Of a stretch of 64,000 nt of DNA, positions 3,959 to 64,000 are shown piece after piece. The notes under the pieces were generated by a model. The model saw nothing but the letters and a program-made list of their open reading frames with translations. It had not been told where the DNA came from and ran no database searches. The position numbers were made by a program, and so were the translations under genes. The first letter of the stretch is position 1. Every line of letters starts with the position of its first letter. Source of the stretch: Balneolaceae bacterium (lineage in GTDB: Bacteria > Bacteroidota > Rhodothermia > Balneolales > Balneolaceae); the NCBI GenBank assembly GCA_034521495.1, contig JAXHMK010000016.1, positions 1-64,000 on the forward strand, read 5' to 3'.

Positions 3959-4130
3959 CCCTCTGAGGGCAGAATCAGAACGTGCGCAGCATCAGTTCTG
4001 TAATCAGGGTGTGTTCGCGGGATTGGAAGCTATGAATAAGCATTAGACTTTTATCAACGCTTTGAAACACACCCCTCGCTGACTGAATACGCTACGCGTT
4101 TTCATCAGCCTTTCCCTCTCAAGAGGGGAA
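3959..4130. repeat. Composite palindromic element, locus A
   Basis: This is a head-to-head pair of modules. The left module runs from CCCTCTGAGGGC through a hairpin to AGGGTGTGTT. The right module runs from AACACACCCCT through another hairpin to CCCTCTCAAGAGGGG, ending 41 bases before the arsA start. The hairpin sequences differ from those at the other loci while the flanks are conserved (see loci B-F). No coding potential is seen. Confidence 0.75.
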
Positions 4131-28257: not shown

Positions 28258-28316
28258 TCTCCCTTTCAGGGGAGACAGAGTTTTTCAACTGTTCTTGAAA
28301 AACTCAGAGGGGTGTT
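28258..28316. repeat. Palindromic element, locus E (single module)
   Basis: TCTCCCTTTCAGGGGAGACA is followed by a hairpin with arms GAGTTTTTCAA (28278-28288) and TTGAAAAACTC (28294-28304), then AGAGGGGTGTT. The layout equals the right-hand module of locus D in reverse, but the hairpin arms differ. It begins 10 bases after the PhyH stop, between convergent genes, so it may also be a bidirectional terminator. Confidence 0.7.
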
Positions 28317-46406: not shown

Positions 46407-48601
46407 TCAACTCCGATTAGCCTCTATGAATATCTCCAGACCAATAATGTGATTGTCTCTCCGCATATGAGTTTTTTTTCGCATCTCTAAGGCTTCCAAC
46501 AAAAGTTTTTCTGCTTCCTCATATTCCCCTTTGGCTCTGAGTAAATTCCCAAGATGTACCAGGCTGTATGCAACATCAGGATGTTCTTCGCCAACCAACT
46601 GAAGACGAATATCTAATGCTTCTCTGTAATATTTCTCAGCTTCATCATACATTTTTCTTCGCTTAACGTCAGTAATAGCGGCCAGTGTTTGTGTCATGGA
46701 CGAATGCTCGCAACCTGAAGATTTTCTTTGCCGTTATTTTCAACTAAAATATCCAGCGATTCTCTCATCATCTCAGCCGCTGCTGTCAAATCGTTCATCC
46801 TCCATTTTAATGCGGCATAATTACTTAAAGCCACTCCAACAGATTCATGACTCTCTCCGACAACAGATCTGCGAATCTCAAGTGCTTTACTCAACAGTGA
46901 ATCTGTCGCCTGAAAATCACTCATACTTTGTTTCAGGACGGCAAGATCGTTCAGAGTTCTTGCTACCTCCAGATTCTCATGATCAAAAAGTTGCTTACGC
47001 ATTGTTAAAGCAGCGTTCAGCAAAGAGTCAGCTCTATCATAATTTCCTATTTGATATTGCAGCCATCCCAGTGAGTTCAGGCTTCGGGCGATATCGGGGT
47101 GTATTTCTCCATAAAGTTTCCGTTGCAGTTGCAATGCTTTTTCCGCCATTTCAAAGCCTTGCCTGTAGAGTCCAAGACTTTCGTACACATCCGAAACCAC
47201 AAGATACAGTTCAGATTGCAGATCAGGCTGATCGTTTAACTCCGTTTCCACCCGGCCTGCCCCGCGATGAAGCAGCTCCACAGCAGAAAGAGATTGATCT
47301 TGTGCTTCAGACGGATCCACTGATTCAAAAAGATCAATCAAAAAACGACTGACCTCTTCCGCCCGATCCCGCTCATTTTCAGCTTCAATCGCCCGCTCTT
47401 CGATAGCCTTTGACTGAATATAGGTTACACTTGCAAAAGAGATCACCAACAGTGCAATCACGGCCGAAGCTGCTATCCCTATTGTATGCCGACGGATAAA
47501 TTTTCCTGATCGGTATGAGATGGAATCTTTTTTAGCGACTACCGGTAATGTTTTTTGATACCGCCGAACATCATCCGCGAACTGCTCCACCGAAGAATAT
47601 CTCTCAGTAGGATCCTTTTTTAAAGCCTTCAGGACGATGGCATCCAGATCATCACCCGAATGTATAGCACCTTTTATTTTTGATGGGATTTCCGGTATTT
47701 GATTGCAGATTGTTTTTTCAATATTCGCCGGTGTACGTTTCTCAAAATGATAGGGCAAATCACCTGCCAGCAATTCGTATAACAACACACCAAGTGAATA
47801 GAGATCGCTAACCGTTGAGATCGGCTCATTTCTTACTTGTTCGGGGGAGGCGTACTCCGGGGTCATCATCCGGTTTTGATACTGTGCTTTCCTCTGCTTC
47901 TGGTCCAGGTCCATCAGTTTTGCTATTCCAAAATCAAGCAACTTGGGGCGGCCCGCCTCTGTGATTAAAATATTTGCCGGTTTAAGATCCCTGTGTACAA
48001 TCAAATTTTGATGAGCATATTGAACCGCTGAGCAGATTTCAAGGAACAGGTCCAACCGTTCTTCCAGTGTGGATTGATGACGCTTGCAATAGTCCGTAAC
48101 CGGCGTGCCCTCCACAAATTCCATAGCAAACCAGGGGAGGTCATCTTCGGTAGTACCTCCGTCAAACAAACGTGCAATATTCGGGTGATTGAGTGATGCA
48201 AGAATCTGCCGCTCCTCATAAAACCTCGTCAGAACATCATCAGAAATCACCCCTTTCCTAATCACTTTTAAAGCCACGAACCGTTCAAACTGCTTATCAT
48301 TTCGAACGGCAAGGTACACATGCCCCATTCCGCCGGAACCAATTTTTCGAATCAGCCGGTATGGGCCGATAACCTGTTCGTTGGCTTTTTCCTCATCCGT
48401 GAACAATAGTGACGATTGCATATCAACCAATGGTTCTTCCATCCATCCGGATGTTTCCTGAGCCAGCAAACTATTCACTTCATCCAGTAGGTCCGGATCA
48501 CCAGCACAAGAATTCTCAATATAAGTGGTACGCTCCTCACCGCTGAGGGTCATTGCCTCCTGGCAAATCGTTTCGATCTTTTTCCAGCGTTCCGGTTTCA
48601 T
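46407..48601 (-). CDS. Ser/Thr protein kinase 3 with tetratricopeptide repeats (one frameshift)
   Basis: I start at 48601 (MKPERWKKIETICQEAM), as the frame upstream runs through a palindromic repeat. After a short helical N-terminus typical of ECF-linked kinases, the kinase domain shows GSGGMGHVYLAVR, VALKVIRK, HRDLKPAN, DFGIAKL and TPEYASPEQ. A membrane segment (about 390-410) precedes kinesin-light-chain-type TPRs (EIHPDIARSLNSLGWLQYQIGNY). A shift near 46700 leads into more TPRs ending at 46407. About 730 residues. The ECF sigma factor upstream should direct its expression. Confidence 0.88.
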
Positions 48602-48621
48602 TTGATATAAGTTTTGGAACT

Positions 48622-48798
48622 CCCCTCTTGAGAGGGGAAAAGTGAAGTCATGACAGCGTAAGCAGTCATGACAAGCAAGGGGTGTGTTCACGTAGACACG
48701 GCCTTCGAACTCCTGTCACGCAACGCAACCACACCCATTTAACACACCCCTGATCCATTCGCTAAACGCTTATGGATCTTGTCCCCTCTCAAGAGGGG
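48622..48798. repeat. Composite palindromic element, locus B
   Basis: It is a head-to-head pair: CCCCTCTTGAGAGGGG (48622-48637), a hairpin with arms GTCATGAC (48647-48654 and 48665-48672), AGGGGTGTGTT; then AACACACCCCT, a hairpin with arms GATCCAT/ATGGATC (48752-48758, 48772-48778), and CCCCTCTCAAGAGGGG (48783-48798). It fills the gap between the sigma-factor gene and kinase 3, so it would be transcribed in the message. Confidence 0.85.
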
Positions 48799-48805
48799 AG
48801 CTTTC

Positions 48806-49457
48806 TTACTTCTGACTTCTCACCCTCAAACCCGGCATCTCCATATCCTTCATCTCCCGCTTTAGCCAAAGTTTTGCCACATTCCAGGCACGGCGAACGG
48901 TAATGGGTGCAATTCCCATCACTTCCGAAATCTCTTTCCAGGTCAATCCCCCAAAAAAATGGTAGTCTACTACCTGGCTCCCCCGCTGGTTAAAATCTTC
49001 CATTTTTTTGATAGCTTTATTCAGCGCCAGGATCTCATCGGCCATCGACTCACTCATGTCATTCAGTATCCATCTCTCCTTCAACTTCTTCCAGCTCTAC
49101 CCGTGAAAACTCCCCTCCCCTCTTTATCGCTTTCTTCTTCTCCGCATAGTTGATGAGTATTCGTTTCATCGCTAATGCCGAGATAGCCAAAAAATGCGCC
49201 CGGCTCTGCCACTCCACTTCATCGTGATTTACAAGTTTAAAATAGGCTTCATGCACCAATGCAGTAGTATCCAAAGTATGGCCGCTGCGTTCAAATTTTA
49301 ATTTCTGATGAGCTATGGAACTCATCTCGTTGTACACCAGCGGCAACAGCTTATTCACCACCTCCTTATCGCCTGCCTTTGAGGATTGCAAAAGCTCTGT
49401 AATTCTATCTTTGGAATATTTTTCCGGTTCCTGAAGTCAGTCTTCGCTAAAAGGCAT
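48806..49457 (-). CDS. ECF-type sigma factor of the kinase-linked class (frameshift; in-frame TGA near start)
   Basis: The frames join as NKLLPLVYNEMSSIAHQKL, TTALVHEAYFKLVNH (sigma-2), then a shift near 49070 into LNKAIKKMEDFNQRGSQVVDYHFFGGLTWKEISEVMGI (sigma-4). This is the large ECF class (TIGR02999-like) that usually precedes Hanks kinases. The ATG at 49457 has a good AAGGAG site, but codon 7 is TGA (49437-49439), after which the same frame continues EPEKYSKDRITELLQ without a break. Either a base error or a true stop. About 216 residues. Confidence 0.82.
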
Positions 49458-49659
49458 GTCTTCTACTCCTTAACTCACCAATTACTTCTATCTTGTAAAC
49501 CCTATGATTTAAAATAAAAAGTAAAGGCAAAAAAGCCAGTCAAAACGACTTCAGTCCATAGTTAAAATGATCACTTCCAAATTTTTTCCTGCGTATTACT
49601 ATAAAGGTTCGTTTTAAATCTCAAATAATTGAATTTGAATCCACAGAACGAAATTTTCT

Positions 49660-51174
49660 ATGCGCATTAAATCAGCCAAACAAAGATTTACAGATAGATC
49701 ACCATGGAAATACCTCTTTATCTCCCTGTTGATAGTGGGACTGATAGCCGGTTGCGATCAAATCACCGGATCTGACGATAATTCAAATTCATCGGATGAT
49801 ACAGATTCAGATCCAAATTCAAACGCTGCCAACATTAGCAGTTTTTCCGCATCGGATGAAATTATCACCGAAGGCGAAACCGTAACACTCAGTTGGGAAG
49901 TGTCCGGTGACGACCCTATTACGTTAACTCTTGAACCGGGGAGTATGGACGTATCAGGTGAAACAAGTATCGAAGTATCTCCTGAGGAGGATACAACCTA
50001 TCAATTAAATGCCGAAAATGAAGCTGGAAGCGACCAATCAGAACTCTCCGTAAGCGTAATACCCGAGGGTGTGGTTGCCATTGAAGTAGAAGTCAACGGT
50101 TTGCCGGCCGGAATGGATGCGAATATAGCCGTAACTAACAACGATGATTACATGCAATGGGTCAGCAAAAATAGTGCCCTCACTGAACTTCCACCTGGTT
50201 CATACACCGTAGCAGCAGGCCCTGTAAATGAATCCGGCAATACATATATCCCAAATCAGGGAGTTCAGACTATTGATGTTGCTAAAGCATATAAAAACAA
50301 GACCTTTATTCAATTAAACTATTCTCTTTCAAATGAATCTTTATATGAGATAGAGCCTGACGTAGAAGCCTGCGAGGAGGGAGCCATTACTGAACTCACA
50401 AAAAAACGGGGACTCATGTATCTCAACTTTATCCGGTCGCTCCTCGGCGTACCACCTGTAGGTTACGATTTTGGCAGTGATGATATGGTCCAAAAAGCGT
50501 CCCTGATGATGGCAGCCAACAGTGATCTCTCCCATTCCCCGCCCGAAGACTGGCACTGCTATTCCGAATCCGGAGCGGACGGAGCCGAAACGAGCAATCT
50601 GGCCATCGACCTGAGAAATAACGAAATCAATGCCACACCCGAACAATTTATGATTCTCTGGGCGGATGACAACAGAGTGCCGAGCCTGGGTCACCGCCGC
50701 TGGCTGATCGATCCGTTTCTCAGCCAGGTTGCCGTCGGCCTTGTGGAGGGAACTCCCATCGAGGGTGAATTTTCAGATGCTGCGGGTTCTGCTGTTCGGG
50801 TGGTAGGCGGACCCGAAGCCAATATCAATAATCTGGAACTGCCATTTGTGGCCTATCCCCGTGGAGACTTCCCAAAAGAATTACTGACAAACAACTGGTT
50901 CCTCTCATTCTCTGTACTTGCCAATACCGGTTCCCGATTCGGTGCCAACGAGCAGGTAGATTACAGCAGCACGTCTATCACAGTACAAAATGAAAACGGC
51001 GACGAATTGTCTGTAACTGACGTATCAGTTGATCACACTGCCTTTGGCCTGCCCAACAGTTTACAATGGAAAGTACCCGATCTCCGGGATAACGAACGCT
51101 ATACGGTTACCATTTCAAACGTGATCGTAAATGGGGAAAGCCGGGATTTTAGTTATGAGGTGCAGTTGCAGTAA
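49660..51174 (+). CDS. CAP/SCP-domain lipoprotein with Ig-like N-terminal domain
   Basis: A signal with lipobox (LLIVGLIAGCDQ) is followed by a Ser/Asp-rich linker, an Ig-like domain (about 60-135, TEGETVTLSWEVSG) and a CAP domain in the second half: YLNFIRSLLG, MMAANSDLSHSPPEDWHC with the His of the CAP cavity, and LGHRRWLIDP with the second His. CAP (cysteine-rich secretory/PR-1) proteins in bacteria are surface proteins of varied function. 504 residues, intact. A palindromic element (locus C) follows. Confidence 0.85.
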   Translation: MRIKSAKQRFTDRSPWKYLFISLLIVGLIAGCDQITGSDDNSNSSDDTDSDPNSNAANISSFSASDEIITEGETVTLSWEVSGDDPITLTLEPGSMDVSGETSIEVSPEEDTTYQLNAENEAGSDQSELSVSVIPEGVVAIEVEVNGLPAGMDANIAVTNNDDYMQWVSKNSALTELPPGSYTVAAGPVNESGNTYIPNQGVQTIDVAKAYKNKTFIQLNYSLSNESLYEIEPDVEACEEGAITELTKKRGLMYLNFIRSLLGVPPVGYDFGSDDMVQKASLMMAANSDLSHSPPEDWHCYSESGADGAETSNLAIDLRNNEINATPEQFMILWADDNRVPSLGHRRWLIDPFLSQVAVGLVEGTPIEGEFSDAAGSAVRVVGGPEANINNLELPFVAYPRGDFPKELLTNNWFLSFSVLANTGSRFGANEQVDYSSTSITVQNENGDELSVTDVSVDHTAFGLPNSLQWKVPDLRDNERYTVTISNVIVNGESRDFSYEVQLQ

Positions 51175-51245
51175 GTGATGCTTGCCTTCATCAGACGTCT
51201 GCCTGTACGTGATTAGCACCTGTCGTCTCGGAGTTGGAAGAAAAT

Positions 51246-51421
51246 CCCCTCTTGAGAGGGGACGGTGAAGTCAAAAGTCCGCTGACGGACTGTTTGACGA
51301 AGCAGGGGTGTGTTCGCAGAGCTGTGGGTTTTAAACTCACTATGTAGTCCTATACATGCCTCTTTACACACCCCTGACCGAATCTCTGAACGCGATTCGG
51401 TCTGTCCCCTCTCAAGAGGGG
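51246..51421. repeat. Composite palindromic element, locus C
   Basis: CCCCTCTTGAGAGGGG (51246-51261), then a hairpin (AAGTC..GACG arms around CCGCTGACGG), AGGGGTGTGTT; then ACACACCCCT, a hairpin with arms GACCGAATC (51376-51384) and GATTCGGTC (51394-51402), and CCCCTCTCAAGAGGGG (51406-51421). It lies between the CAP lipoprotein and the outer-membrane protein. Confidence 0.85.
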
Positions 51422-51526
51422 ATTTTCATGCCTCTCAGAAAACAATAATGATCACTTACGATTTTTTTCCTGCGTAGTTCAATAGAGACAGTCAAATTAT
51501 TCACAACACTTTAAAAAATTACGTCC

Positions 51527-54513
51527 ATGGGTTTTAAAAATACCTTTCTGACATTTCTTCTGTTACTAATTTATTCAACGGCTTCCCTGGCCCAAAACGC
51601 TACAGATTATGATAAATTGATTGAAGGTTCAGCAGAATTTGGAAAATTAGCTGCAGATGTTTTCGAGGGTGTTGCTTTTGATCAACAGACAGTGGGAGAA
51701 TCAACAAAAGAAAAATTTAAAAGCTTTCTGAAGGATCAAGCTATCTCTAACCTCAGAGTAGAATTTTCGGATCTGAAATATCTCCTCAAATGGATGAAAT
51801 TATAAAAGAAATCTATGGTAACTATGCTTGTGAAGATAATTTGGATCGTAGAAAAAAAGATTTGTGCACACAGGCTGCTGAAGGTATGGCATGTAGAATT
51901 TTTGGTGATATAGATGATTTTTATGCGCTTAAAGGTATGGGCAGAATAGCCTTCGATTTAGTCACAAAAGAGATCCCCGGAGCCCCTGGTTTAGCTGCTA
52001 AACTCGTAGAAGCACCTACACGAGCAGCTTATGAAAAAATCAGAAAAGAGATGGAGGGAATTATTCAGAAGTGGTGGCAAAGTAAACCGCCAGTCGAGAA
52101 ATTTCATTATGATCGTAGTTTATTTGGTGATTTAGAGTGTTCAGCTTCAATAGATATTCTTTGGAACAAAAAAAATGGTAAATACCTGTACTATATTTCT
52201 GGTTCTTGTGGTTGTGAATTAGTTCCTGTACCCGGCAGAAATCGACCTGTAAAACTTAACTCTTTCCAGGTATTTGGAGGCGGCAGTGCAAAACCTGTAT
52301 TAGATATGGATGGCGATGGTACAGATAATCAAAATGAACCAAAGGTAAAGCTGAAAGTAACTCATGATCAAAAAAACATTTTACCTGACTGTTATTGTGA
52401 TGAAAATGACGACAACATCGATTCCGCTAAAGCCGAATTTAACCCGGAAGCCGGCGAACCTTCCGACGATGTTACTATTACCCTTACAGCCAAAGATGCT
52501 GCCGGCAGAGATATTGATATTCATGGAGTGGATATCGCCGGGTTGGATACCATTATGGAAGAGGGAGCCGATTATAATGTGATTACCGCACTGCCAGCCA
52601 AGAATGTTGAGGTGAAATTTACAATTGCCGAGCCCCGGAAGGACCAAACGTATGGATTGGATATTCAACTCACAGATTTTGAAGGAGTTACAACTACCAT
52701 CAATCCCGATTATGAGGTACTGAATGTAGAACCTGAAATTGTTCCTCCTGTTGTTAATAACTCAACCTCTGCAGATCCCGGCGAGACGATGGCACTCGAT
52801 GGCGTAGAAGTCACTGTTATCGATAGAAACGCAGACAAAAAAAATGAATCAGAGTTAACGATTAATAGAATCAAACTATCTGGGCAGCCGGAAGGGCTTC
52901 AAACCATACCCGAATTTTCGGAATTTGACATCACATGTAAATCGTTCGCCCCAGAAACAGGAACATATCTATTTGAATTAAGCAGGAGTGCACGAGTGAA
53001 TAATCCGCATGAACACGGTAGTTTTCAAAATGAATTTACAATTTGGGACGACCAAAATGAGGAAGTTAATGGTAATCTCTATTACGAAGTTAATAATGTA
53101 CCACCCGTTATTGAGAGAACATGGGTTGAACCGAGACGGTTTTTACATTCTGGTAAACCAATAGAAATTACCGTCCACGCTTTAGTTCGCGATGATAACA
53201 CCAACAATGACATTCATAAAATAACGATTGATGCAAGCAAAGCTGCCGCAGATAAAACTAAGATCTTTGAAAGGAATGATGGCCTTCAGGAAAAAGAGCA
53301 AGACGAATCGAGAATATTGTTTACTACTGAGGCCTTTAAACACACAAGAGAACCGGATAATCATCCAATTCCAATAACCGTCACGGATCATCCGGATCAA
53401 AAAGATAAATCCAATACCGTTGAAAGCAAAGATTTTATTCATGTAGGCAACGAAGAACCTGAAATTGGTGCAACCGGATATATCTGGGGAGGAAATGAAG
53501 AGCAAGAGTTGACTATTACCCAGGTAAACCGGAGAGTCTGTCCCGGCGAAGAAATTACGGTTGGTGTACGAGCGGCAGATCCGGAAGGAGATCCCCTCAA
53601 AGTCACAGCCACGTTAAACGGGAATGAAATTGAACTTGAAGTACAACCCGGCGGAACAAATACAGGAACATTTAAGGCTCCTGGTCCGGGTGAATATACG
53701 ATCCGATTTGATGCGCAAGAAAGAGTCTTTGATAAACAATTTGCTGAAGCCAGTTCTCTTCATTTGACGGTTGATCCCTGCGAAGAGGAGGATGAAGAAG
53801 AACAAACTGAAGATCAACAAGTGGCATCAGATGAGCCAGTCAAGGATCTTCCCGAAGAGCCGAATCCTCAACCAAACAGTAATACTGACTGGGATTTTAA
53901 TATTGAAACGTTTCGGGTAGGATTTTACCTGGGATATGAAACCCGGTACAACCTCAAAGATGAAGCCTGCAATCAGGAAGAATTGGACAGATGTGAGGCT
54001 GCAAATGGATCACCCTCATTCGGTCTTTTTGCAGAAATTGACGCAATTAATAACCTAAAACTCCCAGGAACGAATACAGATCTATCCATTGCTATGGGTT
54101 TCCGATCCAAAAGAAGTTCGACGGATTTCAGGCAGATGTACAATCAAGGGTCCGGTTATCCTTATATGGTTGATGGATCCTTAAACTTTACCTCGGCTGG
54201 TTTCTATTCGAGATTTTCAGCTCCCATCAAAGATGGATTTCCGATGGAAGACTCAGAGTTTGAAGCATCTTTTAATATTGGATTTAACTATACATGGAAC
54301 AAAGTGGAGTTTAAAAATCAGTCTTTCTCCTCCGGGGATGAAGTTGAAAGGGAGTCACGTTCTCATCAAAACCTGAATTTTACAACGGGTGCCGGAGTGA
54401 ATGTGAACTGGAACCAAAAAATCGGAACGGGTCTCGGAGTTTACTGGGGTACCGACGGCGGAGGCGCAGATGCATTGGGTGGAATAAGAGCGAGTATTAA
54501 CTACAATTTTTAA
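51527..54513 (+). CDS. Large outer-membrane protein with Ig-like repeats and C-terminal beta-barrel (frameshift)
   Basis: A signal peptide (LLLLIYSTASLAQN) belongs to a first frame ending at 51805; the second begins inside it (51790) and is open to 54513. A one-base shift is the simplest reading, because the C-terminal part needs an export signal: it ends in alternating strands and INYNF, a typical barrel terminus. The middle holds a DMDGDGTDNQNE calcium-type loop and several Ig/cadherin-like domains (DPGETMALDGVEVTV, GEEITVGVRAADPEGD). About 990 residues. Function unknown; adhesion or a translocation partner is possible. Confidence 0.72.
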
Positions 54514-54560
54514 AACCAGTTGATCTTGAAGAAAATCCAGAAATTTTAAACCAATTCGAC

Positions 54561-55076
54561 ATGGCTACAAAAAAAGTTTATCTCATATTTGTAAGCATAT
54601 TTTTGATCGTTCTGATGGCGGGATGTGATCTAAAAAAAGCACCATTTTTCGGGCCTGACTTTAGTAATGGGGATGAAGATGGGGACGATATGATTCCATC
54701 CACTGAAATGATTGTGGGTGATTGGGATTTCACATATAACAGACAGGCATATACCTGTTCGGGAACTCAGCCTGAGTTCACCGTTGGAGCTTCCATTATC
54801 TCATCAAGCCCTACCTCCTTTATCGTACAATTTCCGGATGCACCGGCGGGAATTGGTGGATCTTACGATATTGAAACAGGTGAATTCAACGGTACAACCG
54901 GGGAAGTAGAGCGCGGGGATGGAACAACCATCAGTGAATCATGGAGTGCTACACTCAACTATTCTGATGATCCATTTTCAGTTTCGCTGAGCGGTGAATC
55001 AGAAGTTTTGTTAAAAGACGAATCGGGGAGCACTCTCTGTTTTGTGGATTATAATATTGAGGGGATGAGATTATAA
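54561..55076 (+). CDS. Lipoprotein of unknown function
   Basis: The 171-residue product has a lipoprotein signal (LIVLMAGCDLKK) and an acidic linker (GDEDGDD). The mature part starts VGDWDFTYNRQAYTCSG and contains a later Cys (STLCFVD), which could form a disulfide. Predicted beta-rich. It follows the outer-membrane protein by 47 bases, probably in one operon. Confidence 0.7.
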   Translation: MATKKVYLIFVSIFLIVLMAGCDLKKAPFFGPDFSNGDEDGDDMIPSTEMIVGDWDFTYNRQAYTCSGTQPEFTVGASIISSSPTSFIVQFPDAPAGIGGSYDIETGEFNGTTGEVERGDGTTISESWSATLNYSDDPFSVSLSGESEVLLKDESGSTLCFVDYNIEGMRL

Positions 55077-55288
55077 TCAATATTTATTTGCTATATAAGT
55101 ACCTCTAATCGCCAATGAGCCTGATTCAAGCGTCCCGCTTGTGCTCGTTACTTTACTTCTTAGTTCCCATAAGGCACCACTACTTCCTTACCCTCCCATA
55201 GCAGTCACGACCACGGTAATCTGTTCACAGCTCAGGCGAGCCGTGTTATATAAATCAGATTCGCCGAGCCGATTAACTGGTCACTCAA

Positions 55289-55946
55289 TCAAAACCTGCC
55301 AGCCGATACTTCCGGCCCGAGGCCGTGAACGCCCTCCACCCGGCTCAGTTCAATATCTGATGTAGCCGATGGGCCTGAAATAAACGTGATAGGCCTCCCC
55401 TCTTTTTTCACAGTGGACTCAACAGCCGAAAATCCTTCCGGCACCAACTCCACAATCTGATCTTCCCGAACGATACAGAGATGATAATCCGGCACCAATG
55501 TCAATGCCCGTCTCCCCTGCCCTACTCCTGCATCCAAGATAATGGTTCCGGTCTGAGCCACGGCAAAAGCGCAGGTTGTAATGACCCCGTCCGATTCATC
55601 CAGTTCCCGGTGAGTAAGTTGGGTGTCAGAATCATCAAAAAGCAGTTCGATGTTTTCCGGCAGAATATTTTTTTTGAAAACCTTCAGGAATCACAAACTG
55701 TTCAACATTCTCTTTTTTGCAGCTCTCCGCAATCACTTTCTTTAAATCACTTTGATTGACTCTCTGAACCCTTGCCTTATACTCACCCACTCGTTCTGCA
55801 AAGAGAGCCACAATTTCGGCTTGAGATAACTTACCTTTTTGCCGATAGGTTCTCTTCAGTTCAACATCTTCCGGCTTTTCCGAATCCGGCACTTCAGCCA
55901 AAGCCTTTCGAATAGTCGCCAGCATTTCTGTTTTTGCATCACTCAT
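55289..55946 (-). CDS. lutC: LutC lactate-utilisation protein (frameshifted)
   Basis: The N-terminal frame ([16 protein letters not shown]) runs to FQKKYS at 55660. After a one-base loss in a poly-A/T run it resumes [34 protein letters not shown], then the LUD-domain [21 protein letters not shown]. The last residues are uncertain (possible further shift near 55310). It would form the LutABC complex that oxidises L-lactate to pyruvate. Its start overlaps lutB by 8 bases. About 220 residues. Confidence 0.88.
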
Positions 55947-57372
55947 CGCGATTCCTCCACCATTCTCTGAAGGTTTGATCGGGAATTGGTTTCAAATCCC
56001 TCATTGCCGTCCAACCGGAAAGCTGACCCGGTAGTTTTGAAATTGTGCCATCCTTTGTAAATAATTTTTGTCCTATCTTTGCCATCTTTTGTCCACGTTC
56101 ATATCGTGATCGACTCTGGAAAGCCCTGGCCATTATTTTCATCCCAATATGTTCCGGGTCTGCTTTTTGTTTTATAGTACCATTCCGTTTTTTCTCATCC
56201 ACAATTTTTCCGCGCAGATGAACCAACACTTCCGGAATATTTATTTTGACCGGACAAACCTCGTAACATGCTCCGCAAAGTGAGGATGCATACGGGAGTG
56301 AAGCGACTCCATCATCTTCAATCCCTTTTAGTTGAGGCGTCAAAATCGCCCCGATCGGCCCCGGATAGACGGAGTTGTAGGCATGGCCCCCGGTTCGTTC
56401 ATAAACGGGACACACATTCAAACACGCGCTACATCGAATACAATGAAGCGTCTGCCGACCCACTTCATCTTTCAAAACATTGGTCCGGCCATTATCCAGT
56501 AAGACCAGGTGAAATTCCTGAGGACCATCACCTTCGGTTACACCCGTCCAAAACGAATTGTAGGGATTCATCCGCTCCGCTGTGGAAGATCTCGGCAGTA
56601 ACTGCATAAATACTTCAAAATCCTGCCAGGTCGGGATGATTTTTTCGATGCCCATCAGCGTAATTAATGTATCGGGAAGCGTAGTGCACATCCGTCCATT
56701 CCCTTCCGATTCCACAACCGCAACCGTCCCTGTCTCAGCAACTCCAAAATTCGCTCCGCTGATGCCAACTTTTGCATTCAAAAACTTCTTTCGGAGGTAC
56801 AAACGAGCCGCTTCCGCCAAATCTTCCGGTCGGTCACTCAACTCTTTTTGATTCAGTTTTTCCCGGAACAGTTCCCGAATCTCAGCGCGGTTTTTATGAA
56901 TCGCCGGAACCAAAATATGAGACGGCTCATCCTCCGCTAATTGCACAATCAGCTCAGCCAGATCGGTCTCCAGCGCCTGGATTCCCTCCTTGGCTAATGC
57001 TTTATTCAGTTTGATTTCGTCCGTAGTTATCGATTTTACCTTAACAACATCTTCAACCTTTTTTTGTTTGACGAGATCAACAATAATTCGATTCGCTTCT
57101 TTCCCATCTCTGGCCCAGTGAACGTGTCCGCCGGCCTTCTGAACAGACTCCTCAAGCTGGAGAAGATACTTGTCGAGGTGCCGCATCACCCGCGTCTTGA
57201 TCTGACTTCCCGCCTCCCGAAGCTTCTCCCAATCCGGCATCTCATCCACGGCACCTTTTCGTTTCTCACGAATCGTATGCGTCGCGTGGCCAATATTCTT
57301 TCGAAGTTGCGTATTCGACAAATATGCTTTTGCCGAATCTTCAAATGTCGGTGTTTGTTCAGATTTTCTCAT
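55939..57372 (-). CDS. lutB: LutB iron-sulfur subunit of lactate oxidation
   Basis: The intact 477-residue protein has the LUD domain in the first part (GISGANFGVAETGTVAVVESEGNGR) and two [4Fe-4S] ferredoxin motifs in the second (CIRCSACLNVCPVYE and CGACYEVCPVKI). This is the LutB/LldF layout. It overlaps lutC and is separated from lutA by a palindromic element and no gene. With the rhamnose genes upstream it fits lactate made from rhamnose-derived lactaldehyde. Confidence 0.93.
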   Translation of the reverse strand: MRKSEQTPTFEDSAKAYLSNTQLRKNIGHATHTIREKRKGAVDEMPDWEKLREAGSQIKTRVMRHLDKYLLQLEESVQKAGGHVHWARDGKEANRIIVDLVKQKKVEDVVKVKSITTDEIKLNKALAKEGIQALETDLAELIVQLAEDEPSHILVPAIHKNRAEIRELFREKLNQKELSDRPEDLAEAARLYLRKKFLNAKVGISGANFGVAETGTVAVVESEGNGRMCTTLPDTLITLMGIEKIIPTWQDFEVFMQLLPRSSTAERMNPYNSFWTGVTEGDGPQEFHLVLLDNGRTNVLKDEVGRQTLHCIRCSACLNVCPVYERTGGHAYNSVYPGPIGAILTPQLKGIEDDGVASLPYASSLCGACYEVCPVKINIPEVLVHLRGKIVDEKKRNGTIKQKADPEHIGMKIMARAFQSRSRYERGQKMAKIGQKLFTKDGTISKLPGQLSGWTAMRDLKPIPDQTFREWWRNRDE

Positions 57373-57400
57373 AGGTAATAATCATTAAATCAAGAATCTT

Positions 57401-57662
57401 CCCCTCTTGGGAGGGGAAAGCGAAATCATGACAGCGTCAGGCCGTCATGATAAACTCGGGGTGGGTCCGTGTCGTGCCAAACACACCCCATAACTGGTGC
57501 AAGTTTGCAACTTGTACCATCCTTTCGCACATTTAAAAAACTTTGTTGAGTTCCGTAAAATCATGAAAGTGTAAGCAGAGGGATGGGTTTACGTCTCACG
57601 TGACACCCCTCTGTATTTCTCAAGAACTTTTGAGAAATACTGTCTCCCCTGAAAGGGAGATT
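57401..57662. repeat. Composite palindromic element, locus D
   Basis: The left module begins CCCCTCTTGGGAGGGG (57401-57416) and has hairpin arms ATCATGAC/GTCATGAT (57425-57432, 57444-57451), a compensated variant of locus B. A middle module follows ACACACCCCA with GGTGCAAGTT/AACTTGTACC. The right module has GACACCCCTCTG, arms GTATTTCTCAA/TTGAGAAATAC (57613-57623, 57630-57640) and TCTCCCCTGAAAGGGAGA. It spans the lutA-lutB gap and abuts the lutA stop. Confidence 0.8.
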
Positions 57663-58392
57663 ATTCCTCCGTTGAGGCCAAAATTTCTGCAATATGAACT
57701 GGCTTTACTCCACTTCTTTGCCGGCTTAACGCACCACCAATATGCATCAAACAGGAGTTATCCGCAGCGGAACAGACTTCGGCGCCGGTTCCTTTTATAT
57801 GGCGGATTTTATCTCCCAGCATAGCCATTGAGGTATCCGCATTTTTTATGGCGAATGTGCCTCCAAAACCACAGCACTCTTCAGCCATTGGCAGTTCTAC
57901 AAGATCTATTCCCTTTACATTTCTGAGGAGTTTCAGCGGGGCATCGCCCACTTTCAAAACTCGTAACGAGTGACACGTTGGATGATACGTAACCCGATGG
58001 GGATAGTACGCTCCAACATCTTCTAGACTTAATTCATCCACTAAAAATTGCGTTAGTTCAAACACTTTCGGAACAATCTTGTCAACCTGTTTTTTTAATT
58101 TATCATCCCCTGAACGCTTGGCTACTTTTCCGTAAAACTCATGAACCATTCCCACACAGGATGCCGACGGAGCCACAATCGCCTCCGCATCTTCAAAAAC
58201 ATTTATAAATTTCCGGACCAGCGGTATCGCTTCTTCCTGGTAACCGGTATTGTAGTGCATCTGCCCGCAGCAGGTTTGTTCGAGGGGAAAATCAACAGTG
58301 TGGCCGAGCCGTTCTAAAAGCTGTACCATCGCTTTTCCCGTTTCCGGGAAAAGGGTATCGTTAAAGCAGGTTATGAATAGAGAAATCTGAAT
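57661..58392 (-). CDS. lutA: LutA cysteine-rich subunit (ATT or mutated start)
   Basis: The protein has the duplicated CCG domain: QTCCGQMHYNTGY in the first half and EECCGFGGTFAIKN in the second, which bind a [4Fe-4S]-type cluster in LutA/GlpC/HdrB proteins. The first ATG (58329) would miss the conserved start QISLFITCFNDTLFPETGKA, which is in frame to 58392. An AAGGAG site lies about 7 bases before an ATT codon at 58392, so either ATT initiates or an ATG has lost a base. About 243 residues, standard length. Confidence 0.9.
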   Translation of the reverse strand: MQISLFITCFNDTLFPETGKAMVQLLERLGHTVDFPLEQTCCGQMHYNTGYQEEAIPLVRKFINVFEDAEAIVAPSASCVGMVHEFYGKVAKRSGDDKLKKQVDKIVPKVFELTQFLVDELSLEDVGAYYPHRVTYHPTCHSLRVLKVGDAPLKLLRNVKGIDLVELPMAEECCGFGGTFAIKNADTSMAMLGDKIRHIKGTGAEVCSAADNSCLMHIGGALSRQRSGVKPVHIAEILASTEE

Positions 58393-58448
58393 AATTACTC
58401 CTTAGCTATTTTTGATTTTTAGTAATCATATAATATAAGGTTATATAT

Positions 58449-61282
58449 TTACCTTATTAGTTTTACAGGACCAATAAGTCCCGTTTTATTTAGCTCTTGT
58501 CCCCCAGTCCACCTTTGTGCAACTTCATTATCTGTAAGTGATTTCACATAGTTACCTAATACCGTTGTAACTTTAATTGTGATCTCATTTTCACCGGGCT
58601 CAAGCGAATTTCCTGTTTCATAAAGATGTTGACCATACCAGTGAGAGCCTCGGGTATTTCCGTTTATCGATACTTCTGAAATTCCCTTAACTGTTCCCAG
58701 ATCCAAGAAAGTAAATTGTTCGGGATCATGAACTTCAAATTTCTTCTTATAGATTGCTGCACCTGCAAATGATTGTAGATCTGGATCCGTATCAAACCCT
58801 TTGAGCGACTCCATTTTTACCGACCTACTTGTACCATCCACATGATCTAAAGTAAGCTCCCACGGACCACTTAACAATTCTGTTTTCGATGGGTTGATTT
58901 CTGGAATGCTCCACTCCTCGGCCTCCGCTGGTTCGTCAAAAACAATAAGTTTAGTCTCGGCCGGTGCCAATCTTAATTGAAGTTCATTTGGCGAATTCTC
59001 TAAAGGGTAGCGATATCGATCACCCGTTTCCGGATCCCAAAGCCAGGGTACTCGGTTGTCGCTCCTCTTGAAAGTCACTTTTGAAGAATAAACAATATGA
59101 TTGCTGTAATTGGCAAAAAAGTAGATATCCTTCTCACCTGACCGGTAATGTAACTGGCTTACATATGCACTTGATTCATCAAACATAATATCTGGCGAAA
59201 GATCGTATCCAGACTGTATTCCCCTATACCAGTCGATAAGCTTTTCATTCCCGGGCGCAGGATAAATACCGGTACTCTCAGAGAACTGATTTAATAACCG
59301 CTGAACCGACTGATTCACTTGCCGATCATTTCGAGCTTTATTTTGCAGACCCGGTGCCTGGTGTGGCGCCCGGTCAATAAAAATAATCTTCCCACCTGAT
59401 TCCGCATACTTTGCTAATGCTCGTGCGGTATCCGGTTCTATGCTATCGACTTCCAGCAAAATAATTGCCTTATAGCTTCGGTCTCCAAAACGGAGCATTC
59501 CCTCATTAAACGAAGCCTCTTGTATAATCTTTTCACTCACATAATCGCACCCATTACCATTTTGGTGGATTGCTTCCCAAACATTATGCTGATAGTCTGG
59601 ATAGTTTAGTCGTGGGAATGGATCACGTTGCGGTCCATATTTGCGCCACATATCAGCCAGTGGATGCATGACGGCTATATCGGAAACAAGCTCGGCGTTC
59701 TGAAAAAGATATGATAACCGCGCTTTGTAGTCAGCCCATTTGTTAAAGTATGGCCACCATGTATTGCGTTCATTAAAGTATGTTCCATAGCGAATCCAGC
59801 CAGGAAATTCAGCTTCTTCGGGATTGTAATTAAAGCCATGTAATATAGAGTGCGTCACGCCGGACAAATTGCTTTGGTCACCGGCAATTTTTATATCCTC
59901 CAGCGATGCATTGAAAACGTAACCCGTGTTGGTGATCTCTTCACAGCTAATCAGTTTATTCCCAGCCAGTCTTGCACCTGAGGAAACAAATTTATTGACC
60001 ATAGTATAGGCTCTTCCCTGCAAACCAATTTCTTCGAAATGATCCCCCCTATTGTTGACCGCAGCCAGGTTTCACATTCCGGAATATCGATCTCCATCGA
60101 AGATTCAATCGGGTGAAAGCCCCTGCCATAAGCTTGCACTCTTGATTCCACATTGTGCTCGTGGCACCAATCATTAAAGGTTTGTATAAATCGTTCGTTA
60201 AACAGTTCCAGACGTGTTTTGTAAAAATCGTATCGAACACTGTCAATTGTTTCCTGCACTGTCTGGGTAAGTTCCGATCCACCGCTATCATCAACCGGGT
60301 TGCCCATATGGCCGGTTTTAAATAGCACAAAGGGCAGGTATGGATAGAGCGAATAGCCTCTTCTACGCTCAAATTCTTCGAGCATATCATCCGTCCAGTT
60401 GGCACCTTCCAATTCCAAACTGTCGCAGAACATAGCTCGGAATGATTCACCCAGTCCCTCCATCTGTGATTCCATATTATCCGACATCCGTCCTAAATAC
60501 TTTTCCACTGCATCTTTATTGTAGTGATTTAAGACAGGCCCATCAGCACCGGGAGCACCGTTAATCACCGCCTGGAATCCGGTAAATTTCACCATATAGT
60601 AAAGGACGTATTCTCCATTCGGTACTTCAATTGTGATATTATCACCATTAAGTTTCGCGGATAGATCTTCTCCCATGGTAAATTTCTCCATTCGGGCTGG
60701 AGCAAGCCGAAGGAATACCAGTTCTTTAATTAGGTCTTCATTCTTGGAATGCAATTCGAGTTCTATCGAATCAAGCAGGTCAGACCGGCTGAACTGTTTC
60801 GTTTGTGGCCCCTGAAGCTTTTTTGTGCCAAAAGTCATTAGCTGGGTTTGTTCATTCTTATCAAGGAACCTGCCTCCAAACGGCCATCCGGACCCTACGA
60901 TTATATCGCAGGTTATACCTCGTTTTTCAGCAGCACTTACCGTAGTTTCTACCATTTCAATCCACTCCGGACTTAGCCATTCGTGCGATGGTATGCCCAT
61001 AGCATCAGCATTACTCGGAAACTTAATGGAGTTAATTTCTACACCACCAATACCAGCTTCTTTCATCAGATCCAACTCGCGCACGATTTCATCTTTTGTG
61101 ACCTTATTCCCGTTCCACCACCAGCGAACAAACGGTTTTGCAGCATTGGGCGGTGATGTAAAACCTCCATAAAGAGATTCTATTTCATCTGCACTGGCGT
61201 TTAATCGTGAGAGTTTTATAAAGGGCAGACCGGCTGCTACCAAAGCGTTTAGTTTTATAAATTCTTTTCGTGAAATATCCAT
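58449..61282 (-). CDS. GH106-type alpha-L-rhamnosidase, secreted (frameshift)
   Basis: A twin-arginine-like or lipid-independent N-terminus (MDISRKEFIKLNALVAAGL) is followed by PFVRWWWNGNKVTKDEIVREL and MKEAGIGGVEI, hallmark of the Glyco_hydro_106-like rhamnosidases. Frame breaks near 60030 separate the N-terminal catalytic part from the C-terminal part, which carries MHPLADMWRKYGPQRD and a galactose-binding-like domain (FLDLGTVKGISEVSINGN). Total about 940 residues. It would release L-rhamnose from glycans, feeding the isomerase and kinase next to it. Confidence 0.8.
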
Positions 61283-61287
61283 AAATA

Positions 61288-62688
61288 TTATTTTTTAGTA
61301 AGCCTTTTAATTGGCCAGTGCCTTTTAAATCCCAATAATGTTTTTAGTTTTTCTTTTTGTTCAAGATGGACTGCCATATTATTGACTACCATTGCTGCAC
61401 CGAGAGCAGATGCATCCGAAAGCTTCGCTGTGTAAATATTTCTATCGGGAAAAAATGAAGCTAAAAGTGAGACAAACAGATCATTCTGGCTAAAGCCCCC
61501 GGTTACAATCAATTTGTCAATATTCTTTGATCCCTCCGCAAGCTTGATCGATTCCGCCTGAATTGACACTAAGTCTAACATTAACTGATGGTAGGCTTCC
61601 TTCGCAGACGAAAAATGATCCAACTGCCAATCTCCGGCTTTTTTTTGCGGAAACGGACCTGAATTGTATGCTTCTTCAAGTTCTAATCTTTTTTCATTCT
61701 TTTGAGTTTCAATCAATCTATTCAGCAGATCTACATCCGAATTCATCCAAGGCCCCTTATCATTAACTGAAAAATGCTGATAAATTTTTTTCTTCTGATG
61801 TGAATACTCAGCCCCCAAAAACAATCTCGAGGCTTTCACCTGGTTTCCAAAAATATCCAAATAACAGAGGCAATCTTTCTCCAGCTCTTTGAATGTCAGC
61901 GGTTCATCATTAAACGGGTTTAATGTGATACTCCATGTGCCGGTTGAAATCAGCATAAACAGATCGTTTAATCCAATGAGATATGGAGCCAGAGCTGCTG
62001 AACTATCGTGAATTCCCGGACCAATTTTGACACCATTTTTCTCAACAATTTCTGTGACAGGCTGAGGATTAGGAAGCAAAGATTGAACTTTTTCCTTTCT
62101 AACCCAGGAATGATAATCCATCTCATCAAAATTCCACAAGCCTGTATGGCACCCGATGCTGGTCAGTTCTGAAATACTTTTTCCTGTGAACAAGTAACTC
62201 AAATAGTTTGGCAGATGAAGAGAATTTTTGATTTTCTTGAAGATCTCCGGCTTCTGATATTTTAGCCAATAGAGTTGCAATCCGGAATTCAGCATTCCCA
62301 TCGGCGGCGATGCGGTTTCCAGTGCAAACTTCTCTCTTCCGCCCACGGATTTGTAAAACTGGTCTAAAAGTTCCTCCGGAAAGTTCTTTAGATAGTTATA
62401 AAGCGGAGTTACCGGCTGGCCGTTTTTGTCAATATGCACAAAACTGGCTCCATACGCTGAAAAGTTCAGAGCTTGAATTTCGTATTTCTTTTGAGCCTTC
62501 TGAAATTGAAATTTAATCCAGGTTTCCAGCCTTTCCAGATCTTCACATGGATCACCATCATCATCCACCGTCTGCTCCAATTTGGTTTGATGCTTTTCAA
62601 TAACAGCATAATCCTCATCAAACAGCAAGAACTTTTTATTGCTCTTACCGATGTCGAAAATTGCTGTTACGGGTTTGTGTGATGGCAT
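61288..62688 (-). CDS. FGGY-family sugar kinase, probable rhamnulokinase
   Basis: The 466-residue protein has the N-terminal phosphate loop AIFDIGKSNKKFLLFD, HDSSAALAPYLIG and ISTGTWSITLNP in the middle, and the FGGY ATP motif KLIVTGGFSQNDLFVSLLASFF near the end. Length and context match L-rhamnulose kinase, although sequence alone cannot separate it from fuculokinase-like members. It starts 5 bases... before the rhamnosidase gene in transcription order, so the two are co-transcribed. A 300-base gap with hairpins separates it from the isomerase. Confidence 0.82.
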   Translation of the reverse strand: MPSHKPVTAIFDIGKSNKKFLLFDEDYAVIEKHQTKLEQTVDDDGDPCEDLERLETWIKFQFQKAQKKYEIQALNFSAYGASFVHIDKNGQPVTPLYNYLKNFPEELLDQFYKSVGGREKFALETASPPMGMLNSGLQLYWLKYQKPEIFKKIKNSLHLPNYLSYLFTGKSISELTSIGCHTGLWNFDEMDYHSWVRKEKVQSLLPNPQPVTEIVEKNGVKIGPGIHDSSAALAPYLIGLNDLFMLISTGTWSITLNPFNDEPLTFKELEKDCLCYLDIFGNQVKASRLFLGAEYSHQKKKIYQHFSVNDKGPWMNSDVDLLNRLIETQKNEKRLELEEAYNSGPFPQKKAGDWQLDHFSSAKEAYHQLMLDLVSIQAESIKLAEGSKNIDKLIVTGGFSQNDLFVSLLASFFPDRNIYTAKLSDASALGAAMVVNNMAVHLEQKEKLKTLLGFKRHWPIKRLTKK

Positions 62689-62713
62689 GAATTGATTTTT
62701 ATGACTTATTACT

Positions 62714-62985
62714 CGTTACGAAGGTCCTCCTTCGTAACGCATATCAGGAAGCTCTTGCTTCCATTCTTTGAACTCCTTATGATTTCTGGCATCCATAAAT
62801 AAGTGGAAGCTGGAGCTTCTCACTGGCATTCCGAAGCCGGAGCTTCGGAACGAGTATAAATTCTCGGGGTGGGTTCTCATGATTTAAGTCTCAACCACGT
62901 GAACACACCTCTGACAGAATCACTGAACGTGATTCTGTCTGTCTCCTCTCCCCGATTAAAATCATCGGGACAGGCAAGAGGAGAG
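62714..62985. repeat. Hairpin cluster and composite palindromic element, locus F
   Basis: CGTTACGAAGG/CCTTCGTAACG (62714-62739) and TTCCGAAGC/GCTTCGGAA (62829-62850) are perfect stems. Then comes a composite unit (62863-62985): CGGGGTGGGTT; ACACACCTCT; a hairpin with 11-base arms GACAGAATCAC (62913-62923) and GTGATTCTGTC (62929-62939); and CTCCTCTC..GAGAGGAG-type arms split by CCCGATTAAAATCATCGGG. It lies between the isomerase and kinase genes. Confidence 0.75.
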
Positions 62986-62988
62986 TAA

Positions 62989-64000
62989 CTACAACCCAGT
63001 TGCAATTGTATCTGAACCCCGTTCATTAATTAACTCCCGGCGTACATTCAATTCCCTGAATAACCCAATCGGATTCGCTGCAGCACCGGAACGAATTCTC
63101 GATTCCCGAAGCAGCGGACGAACATCTGTTTGATACGCATCTTGCAAACATTCCTGTGCGGCTACGGGATCATTGTCCTGCCTCGCTTCAGAAAGTTTCT
63201 TCCTGTCAATCAACAACGCCTGCGCATACGATTTTTTAATCGCCCCCACGGATTGAAGCAGATCTTCAAGCGGATCTTTCACATTGTGACTCGCATCGAT
63301 CATCCAGGAAATATTTTGCTCCAGATCATTCTTCCCGGTTGTTCCTTCAACCAGTTCGTTGAAAATTAAAAACAGTTGATACGGTTTGATGGAGCCGGTT
63401 GTCAAATCATCATCGCCGTACTTTGAATCATTAAAATGGAAGCCGCCTAACTTTCCTTCCATCAATAAAATGGATACGATTTGTTCAATGTTGGTATTAG
63501 GCAGATGGTGACCTAAATCAACTAATGTTTTAGCTTTTTCGCCCAAGCTTGTTAGCCAGTAAAAACGAGGTCCCCCAATCCGGAATGACCATGGAATAGA
63601 AATTGGGCTCGTAGGGTTTGTACTCGATTAACACTTTCCAATCATCAGGCAGATTCATTGTAAATCTCTTCGAGCGACTGATGAGTTCGTTCCAGAGCTT
63701 TGCTAAAATTCTGCTGTCCCGGAAACACAGATCCATCCGCCAGCCAAACCGTCAGCGCTTTTGAGCCAAGCGCTTCACCATATTTGATCACTTCAATGTT
63801 ATGATCAATCGCCTGCTTTCGGACTTTTGGATCCGTATGAGAAAGAGAACCAAACTTATACGAATATTCCTGGTCTTTCTGATCCTGGAACGTATTGGAG
63901 TTGACCGCATCGAACGTAATATCCAGATCATCGGCTAACTCTTTAATTGCAGCCGAATCATTCGGAATATCCCAGGGAATGTGAAGGGAAATTGCTCCGC
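62989..64000 (-). CDS. rhaI: L-rhamnose isomerase (RhaI-type), partial, frameshifted
   Basis: The gene enters from the right edge. The reading GAISLHIPWDIP, FDAVNSNTFQDQ, YKFGSLSHTDPKVRKQAIDH and GSKALTVWLADGSVFPGQQN matches the TIM-barrel isomerase of the Pseudomonas stutzeri RhaI type. After shifts near 63660 and 63550 it continues WKVLIEYKPYEPNFYS, LVDLGHHLPNTNIEQIV and GGFHFNDSKYGDDDL, which carry the metal-binding Glu, His and Asp residues. It converts L-rhamnose to L-rhamnulose. The N-terminus is outside the window; at least 337 residues are present. Confidence 0.85.

Follow-up and report, generated by a model that had tools for sequence, protein, structure and literature searches.

How a short repeated element can keep its ends constant while its hairpin changes from copy to copy, and which enzyme is its partner, is the question raised by a 64,000-bp stretch of the genome of a Balneolaceae bacterium (positions 1–64,000 of contig JAXHMK010000016.1, GenBank assembly GCA_034521495.1; contig C16 of the 4.57 Mb source genome, here G000). 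In this stretch, hereafter the window, an earlier note made from the sequence alone had described six composite palindromic loci, A to F, among them B and C at 48,622–51,421. It had proposed either selection on RNA or cruciform structure, or a mechanism that replaces hairpins as units, and had pointed to a REP-associated tyrosine transposase (RAYT; REP, repetitive extragenic palindrome) or another enzyme as the missing partner.

The elements are probably repeats resembling REPs and bacterial interspersed mosaic elements (BIMEs), in which units made of a near-palindrome (P), a hairpin (H) or a 4-nt linker, and a tail (t) alternate in inverted orientation, are linked to DUF559 nuclease genes, and have the DUF559 protein as their cognate enzyme. 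Units accompany DUF559 genes, the type of P matches the nuclease clade, elements are polymorphic for presence and absence, H varies with its pairing preserved, and the interior between P copies is found inverted or replaced. The repeat family is widespread and apparently undescribed; the literature searched, which does not cover most subscription papers, contained no account of palindromic repeats tied to DUF559.

The repeated unit and its hairpins

The unit reads T-P-H-t, where P is CCCCTCTTGAGAGGGG, H is the variable hairpin and t is AGGGGTGTGTT; a T stands directly before P in 232 of 241 units. The window contains 12 strand-wise matches to P with at most three mismatches (0.27 expected) and eight matches to AGGGGTGTGTT with one mismatch (0.84 expected). 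Over the whole of G000, P was found 47 times on the forward and 49 times on the reverse strand with at most two mismatches, as against none for the reversed control; as P is nearly palindromic, many of its sites are counted on both strands. The earlier observation of constant flanks around a varying hairpin is confirmed. Elements B and C are composed as follows.

48622–48637, + strand: left P of element B (inverted pair, 48622–48798)
48638–48677, + strand: left hairpin H of B, 40-nt class
48678–48688, + strand: left tail of B, AGGGGTGTGTT
48741–48751, − strand: right tail of B, inverted
48752–48782, − strand: right hairpin H' of B, 31 nt, loop GTTTA
48783–48798, − strand: right palindrome P' of B
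51246–51261, + strand: left P of element C (inverted pair, 51246–51421)
51262–51303, + strand: left hairpin H of C, 42 nt
51304–51314, + strand: left tail of C
51365–51375, − strand: right tail of C, inverted
51376–51405, − strand: right hairpin H' of C, 30-nt class, GACCGAATC...GATTCGGTC
51406–51421, − strand: right palindrome P' of C

The head-to-head pairing that had been noticed is real. Elements A, B and C are inverted pairs, and 21 such pairs, with tails inward and 20–55 bp between them, were parsed in the G000 loci; pairs and arrays also stand beside genes, so that inverted dimers and BIME-like mosaics are both present. The first set of loci gave 63 parsed units. In 29 of 241 units the hairpin is missing and P is separated from t by at most 5 nt (ATTT and similar). 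The statement that every copy has a different hairpin holds for most copies and proved slightly too strong, for GATTGAATCGCGTTYAGCGATTGAATC is common to L008, L054 and L062, and in one metagenome-assembled genome (MAG) many copies share hairpins.

Covariation was analysed in 63 distinct hairpins of 30 nt, to which G000 contributed 32, and, with a pair-counting tool, in 32 G000 units, pairing being judged by ungapped column-pair counts against shuffles and slid registers. Among the 63 hairpins, columns 7 and 27 pair in 51 (17 expected) with all four Watson–Crick pairs represented, the outer arm columns lie far above the shuffles, and the paired fraction is 0.69 in register and 0.16–0.27 in shifted registers. 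In the 32 G000 units, 81.6% of cells are paired (70.6 ± 1.0 after shuffling) and covariation is 0.287 (0.119 ± 0.012 after shuffling, 0 of 500 shuffles; best slid register 0.109). It should be considered that the copies are related, so that shuffle counts are not probabilities; the slid registers preserve this relatedness. The arms of H therefore vary under a pairing constraint, and the idea that structure is kept while sequence changes is supported. Complementarity within each copy holds overall and fails at three middle pairs, which are unpaired in 17, 18 and 24 of the 32 units. Mismatches also recur at fixed places within the arms of the 63 hairpins (G/A at columns 10/24 in 30, A/G at columns 12/22 in 48), and the loop is mostly GTTYA; with this fixed mismatch and loop, the hairpin possesses constant features besides its free arms.

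P and t change together. When position 2 of P forms T..A, the tail has A in 17 of 18 cases, compared with four of 192 when it forms C..G. Pairing of t with the 5' arm of P was considered and rejected, as in the simple pairing register the altered positions do not lie opposite one another; common descent of one subfamily could be the source of the coordinated change.

A pattern scan returned named matches mostly from Balneolaceae MAGs or Rhodohalobacter sulfatireducens. Units of G056 and G068, which belong to the genus of G000, are identical to the letter to units in these records. The unit is conserved exactly between distant genera. Tandem hairpin-less P units were also seen outside Bacteroidota, in a Nitrospirae record (L090) and a Zixibacteria record (L140, with the array pattern P-ACTAAAATAAATT-P...), where contamination of the contigs is possible.

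DUF559 genes among the units

The window contains no RAYT gene, as had been stated; genome scans gave no Y1 and no DUF559 match there, all six DUF559 genes of G000 lying elsewhere. The search for an associated enzyme led to a DUF559 nuclease of the Vsr/EDxHD type: the gene that a pair of inverted units encloses in each of L013, L134 and L090 encodes a DUF559 protein (PF04480, E about 1e-30). A DUF559 gene beside pairs of hairpin units recalls the RAYT genes flanked by REPs.

From the family, 95 DUF559 loci (part of all matches) were fetched, and the 93 with frames of at most 260 aa were scored. At least one unit lies within 330 bp at 80 of the 93, compared with 8.9% of 1000 control positions, and the same P head flanks both sides at 19 of 93, compared with 0 of 1000 controls. 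Since the controls came partly from unit-holding loci, the 8.9% background is, if anything, too high. An inverted-repeat score of at least 14 was obtained at 17 of 35 DUF559 loci and at 0.5% of 2000 controls; seven irregular-length loci with misplaced flanks were kept in this test, and none of them reached 14. In a sample of the phylum together with two family loci, a permissive detector found a unit in 14 of 23 cases, with one on each side in eight.

The type of P tracks the DUF559 clade. A tree of 93 proteins was built over 142 columns, with many of its forks open; on this tree, the nearest-P label changes 11 times, as compared with 24–33 times in 300 label shuffles; the labels comprise five classes in 53 rows, 27 rows of rarer classes and 13 unlabelled rows being left out. 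One clade of 11 DUF559 proteins (support 87) has a P of the CCCCTC or CTCCTC type wherever a P was recognized. Within it, a subclade formed by L257, L228, L253, L203, L208 and L216 (support 95) goes with hairpin-bearing units, and the remaining members (L146, L221, L241, L251 and L254) go with hairpin-less ones. The hairpin-less loci have the architecture P t> DUF559 <t P, complete in four of five, the right P being interrupted in L221. In the hairpin subclade, as read within the fetched flanks of about 500 bp, at least one flank of the gene carries a complete pair (P H t> <t H P) in all six cases, and both flanks do so in two (L253 and L216).

The association extends to whole genomes. In a set of 89 family genomes, exact copies of the unit occur in 16 of 19 with a close relative of the nuclease and in 15 of 70 without (Fisher p 9e-7), a close relative being defined by at least 132 bits, a cut chosen after the list was known, and two of the 19 genomes (G039 and G091) being off the tree. 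Within the genus the unit is found in nine of 10 genomes with the nuclease clade and in five of 15 without it (p 0.007). With a stricter cut of 59% identity, the family figures are 11 of 12 and 20 of 77 (p 2e-5).

On this reading, the window copies are short, gene-less relatives of DUF559-bearing elements, with which they share P and t. They are reminiscent in this of miniature inverted-repeat transposable elements (MITEs), which are also short and gene-less and share inverted ends with a gene-carrying element; unlike in MITEs, no transposase is known here, no target-site duplication was resolved, and an alternating mosaic takes the place of a single terminal-inverted-repeat element.

The predicted fold of the DUF559 protein supports a nuclease of the Vsr/EDxHD type. 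For its AlphaFold2 model (predicted local distance difference test, pLDDT, 91), the nearest solved folds are 3hrl (E 5e-7) and the homing endonuclease I-Bth0305I (3r3p, E 2e-4), the match to Vsr itself (1vsr) being weak (rank 9, E 0.07); phmmer likewise returned 3hrl (E 9e-16) and 3r3p (E 0.009). Residues D65 and E76 of the modelled protein are invariant. Passages of two papers describe DUF559 as Vsr-like (PMC12907096) and place it in the EDxHD homing-endonuclease family (PMC9403480). With EDxHD homing endonucleases such as I-Bth0305I (treated in part of PMC3943268) and free-standing homing endonuclease genes, the present system shares a close solved fold and in-frame location in conserved genes (LeuRS and MetH, see below); it differs from them in that no intron or intein was seen, palindromic units stand beside the gene, and many gene-less copies occur at unrelated sites.

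G000 contains 27 copies of a motif with fixed spacing, TGTAAGG-N16-TTCATAC (none in the control), examples being those in L301 (C10:796633–796662), L297, L298 and L308. A number of RAYT/Y1 and DUF559 genes have it immediately upstream, and it looks like a shared promoter of these mobile nuclease genes.

Presence, absence and exchange at corresponding sites

G066, a genome in which no exact unit was found, lacks the whole of element B at the orthologous intergenic site. The interval that holds D1 and D2 measures 310 bp in G000 and 12 bp in G066, and that holding F measures 301 and about 94 bp, respectively. The comparison covered B, D and F; C lies in a stretch without alignment. The copies of the window other than B and C are as follows.

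3959–4128, unstranded: element A, an inverted pair with a degenerate left P (CCCTCTGAGGG) and a tail at 4006–4015
4066–4128: right half of A; inward tail 4066–4076, hairpin 4077–4112, P 4113–4128
28259–28316, + strand: element E, single unit; variant P CTCCCTTTCAGGGGAG at 28259–28274
28278–28316: rest of E; hairpin 28278–28305, tail AGAGGGGTGTT at 28306–28316
57401–57490, unstranded: element D1; left unit with P at 57401–57416, hairpin TCATGACAGCG/CCGTCATGA and tail CGGGGTGGGTC
57480–57490: inward right tail of D1
57602–57659, − strand: element D2, E-type unit; P CTCCCCTGAAAGGGAG on the + strand at 57644–57659, hairpin 57613–57640
About 62863–62985, unstranded: element F, degenerate pair; left tail 62865–62875, right tail 62902–62912
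Right side of F: hairpin 62913–62939, right P interrupted by another hairpin

The hairpin GTATTTCTCAA/TTGAGAAATAC, which had been assigned to the unit at 57401, was misplaced by about 200 bp; it lies at 57613–57640, in the separate unit D2. The loop of P is interrupted by a further hairpin in element F (about 62943–62981, CCCGATTAAAATCATCGGG) and also in L221 and L216. At D (57495–57519) and F (about 62829–62852), RAYT-type REP hairpins occupy the place of the expected hairpin and P, which in F are those of the left side; they are of the kinds that flank the RAYT genes L041/L042 and L043/L046.

Gene-bearing elements are polymorphic as well. Among eight congeners, a DUF559 cassette is present at one site in G001, G004, G005 and G008 and absent in G002, G003, G006 and G007. 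The DNA from the DUF559 cassette to a further unit also varies among congeners (L318 and L317; G008 and G005), a cargo-like segment being present, absent or different.

DUF559 genes stand free between units or, in some loci elsewhere in the phylum, the domain is found in frame inside other proteins: in LeuRS at one site in L336, L338 and L353 and at another site in L350; in MetH in L345 and L349, at the same linker; in HsdR in L339 and L354; and in HsdM in L342. Pfam confirmed an in-frame DUF559 in all nine fused proteins scanned. No intein family was among the hits at E 1e-8 in these nine proteins, which were not scanned for intron RNA. Inspection by eye of the LeuRS of L336 and L350 revealed extra unit-like peptides near KMSKS. 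The Rickettsia palindromic elements (RPE), described in part of PMC10969869 as palindromes of about 150 bp able to insert in frame in protein genes, are similar by this description, the only basis of the comparison, in being palindromic, and may be so in the in-frame insertion (DUF559 in 9 of 9 fused proteins, a unit detected in four of nine); they are unlike the present elements, which are accompanied by a DUF559 gene. The 12 window-type pairs that were checked for this trait do not lie inside long frames.

The fate of the interior between two P copies was followed in 74 two-P elements with flanks matching another locus, which, after removal of those with flanks at least 99.5% alike, gave 10 distinct site pairs. 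Four pairs retained the interior in an unchanged orientation, namely L023/L089 (0.75), L071/L123 (0.96), L082/L083 (0.67) and L103/L112 (0.72). The interior was inverted in L050/L080 (0.79 inverted, 0.62 in the same orientation, shuffle maximum 0.62; flanks 86 and 91%) and in L138/L139 (0.64 inverted, 0.50 in the same orientation, shuffle maximum 0.53). In L072/L103, L083/L112 and L116/L138 the similarity fell within the shuffle range, and L053/L283 was borderline (0.60 and 0.59, shuffle maximum 0.57). In L116/L138, a 41-nt hairpin corresponds to ATTT, and the partner hairpin differs too, between flanks 82 and 84% alike. Colinearity was checked for all 10 pairs, and most orthologies are backed by long colinear alignments; L071/L123 has short aligned pieces only and the same MAG title, and may represent two copies in one genome. 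Slow drift of the hairpin was seen at some orthologous sites (L007/L129, two changes). As interiors are kept, inverted or unrecognizable between colinear flanks, hairpins are exchanged as P-bounded units, in agreement with the replacement of hairpins as units that had been suggested. As to the other suggestion, selection on RNA or cruciform structure, the data can be accounted for without RNA structure.

A mechanism that would produce this pattern can be outlined. The nuclease would recognize and cut P, possibly with t; P copies would then anneal, or undergo gene conversion with one another, to mend the break; and repair would re-insert, flip or swap the P-to-P interior. H would be retained since only paired hairpins would be proficient as a single strand or cruciform, the sequence of the arms being largely free. 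Cutting at P and annealing between P copies would explain the flips, the swaps, and the constancy of P and t around a changing interior. More tentatively, the elements may form a new class of mobile element, in which a DUF559/EDxHD nuclease cuts its clade-specific P, interiors (hairpins, spacers, cargo or the nuclease gene) are inverted, swapped or inserted at other P copies, including in frame in essential genes, and hairpins are selected for foldability and not for sequence; we regard this broader proposal as possible rather than probable.

Alternative explanations and biological meaning

That DUF559 recognizes and cuts P, possibly with t, is our inference, and a number of results weigh against DUF559 as the cognate enzyme. 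Thirteen of the 93 DUF559 loci have no unit, and only 19 pass the both-sides test. G000 has a single DUF559 gene in the matching clade (C10:796644–797054), and this one belongs to the hairpin-less type; not one of the six DUF559 genes of G000 falls in the hairpin-bearing subclade, and units occur in 15 of 70 genomes without the nuclease clade; many copies may therefore be relics or have moved otherwise. No target-site duplication was resolved, the element-free sites being too diverged at the junction. At the in-frame loci, the detector, designed for inward-facing units, registers one in four of nine; by eye, L345, L349 and L339 have tails pointing outward and the others are degenerate or unclear. 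The inversions rest on two site pairs, and L138/L139 is modest. Hairpins of two classes are combined at the left and right ends of a pair in 14 of 17 cases in G000, which is significant, but only in 19 of 30 in relatives, which is not (21 of 51 pairs were dropped as hairpin-less or unclassified); a strict alternation of the two classes therefore does not serve as a main argument. Hairpin and spacer similarity, compared by Mantel tests over 21 pairs, were weakly correlated (0.07 to 0.28). Finally, 10 of the 20 terminator-like sites in 48000–63500 lie inside B, C or D.

The alternative that survives best, although we hold it unlikely, is that the palindromes are passive and are moved by older or general processes such as replication slippage and inverted-repeat recombination, a selfish DUF559 using them as landing sites. 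The 15 genomes with units and without the nuclease clade are consistent with this, and inversion of an interior could arise by recombination between two 16-bp P copies with no dedicated enzyme. This explanation fits part of the data; however, it leaves unexplained the matching between P and nuclease clade and the exact conservation of the unit between distant genera.

Rather unlikely, too, is that the elements are ordinary REPs and BIMEs mobilized by a G000 RAYT (Y1/HUH) transposase, the link with DUF559 being incidental. The resemblance to systems of REPs and RAYTs (TnpA-REP, REPtrons; REP elements and TnpA-REP classes are covered in sections of PMC6006769, PMC3733652 and PMC8266576) is considerable: both have short palindromic units, inverted dimers, mosaics, a gene beside its cognate repeats, a conserved mismatch and loop in the hairpin, and matching between repeat and enzyme. 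Moreover, Y1 genes are many in G000 (19 Y1_Tnp matches), and RAYT-type hairpins adjoin D and F. When the 19 Y1 loci of G000 were scanned for P (at most four mismatches) or t (one mismatch), only L037 had units, the nearest of them about 420 bp from the reading frame. A RAYT as the missing partner was rejected on 43 Y1 loci, 17 from G000 and 26 from relatives (three irregular-length relatives' loci, L034 and L049 being excluded): this P lies within 330 bp at none, any unit at five, and the same head on both sides at one. Other hairpins flank the eight Y1 genes whose flanks were inspected, and the type of P follows the DUF559 clades. Unlike in REPtrons, none of 241 units has a GT[AG]G foot, the unit has three parts (P, H and t), the arms vary widely, interiors are swapped, and the enzyme is DUF559 and not Y1/HUH. 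The subclass 2.6 RAYTs of Bacteroidetes are mentioned in part of PMC6006769 with 'atypical secondary structures'; the 2.6-like RAYT genes found here, so labelled from their motifs, are flanked by other hairpins. In the TIRYT arrangement, which the same paper presents for Y1 proteins of subclass 2.1 and their GGGG-rich terminal inverted repeats, GGGG-containing inverted repeats surround a small nuclease gene as they do here; the enzyme there is Y1/HUH and here DUF559, and the Y1 loci examined are mostly without units (5 of 43 with one).

Selected regulatory RNA or terminator elements are very improbable: stem covariation in H, the lack of an open frame of at least 120 aa across any of the 12 pairs checked (of 21) and the terminator-like sites inside B, C and D would agree with them, but those sites total 20 as against 14.5 ± 4.1, slightly above chance, Rfam has no match in the window, element B is absent from the orthologous G066 site, and the units accompany one nuclease family. 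A T-rich stretch follows t in seven of 241 units, and terminator function is possible as a side effect of the elements. PADLOC returned weak matches only.

Bacterial genomes are rich in REP-like repeats, which are usually ascribed to a Y1/HUH transposase. Here, in one family and in part of a sample of the phylum, the associated enzyme belongs to another class of nuclease. If DUF559 acts on P, this would give a role to a widespread family that is still of unknown function in Pfam, would reveal which enzyme orphan palindromic repeats have as their partner, and would mark P-bounded sites of inversion and exchange. The elements also represent a natural data set in which the fold of a hairpin is constrained and the sequence of its arms is free, so that the role of the hairpin becomes testable.

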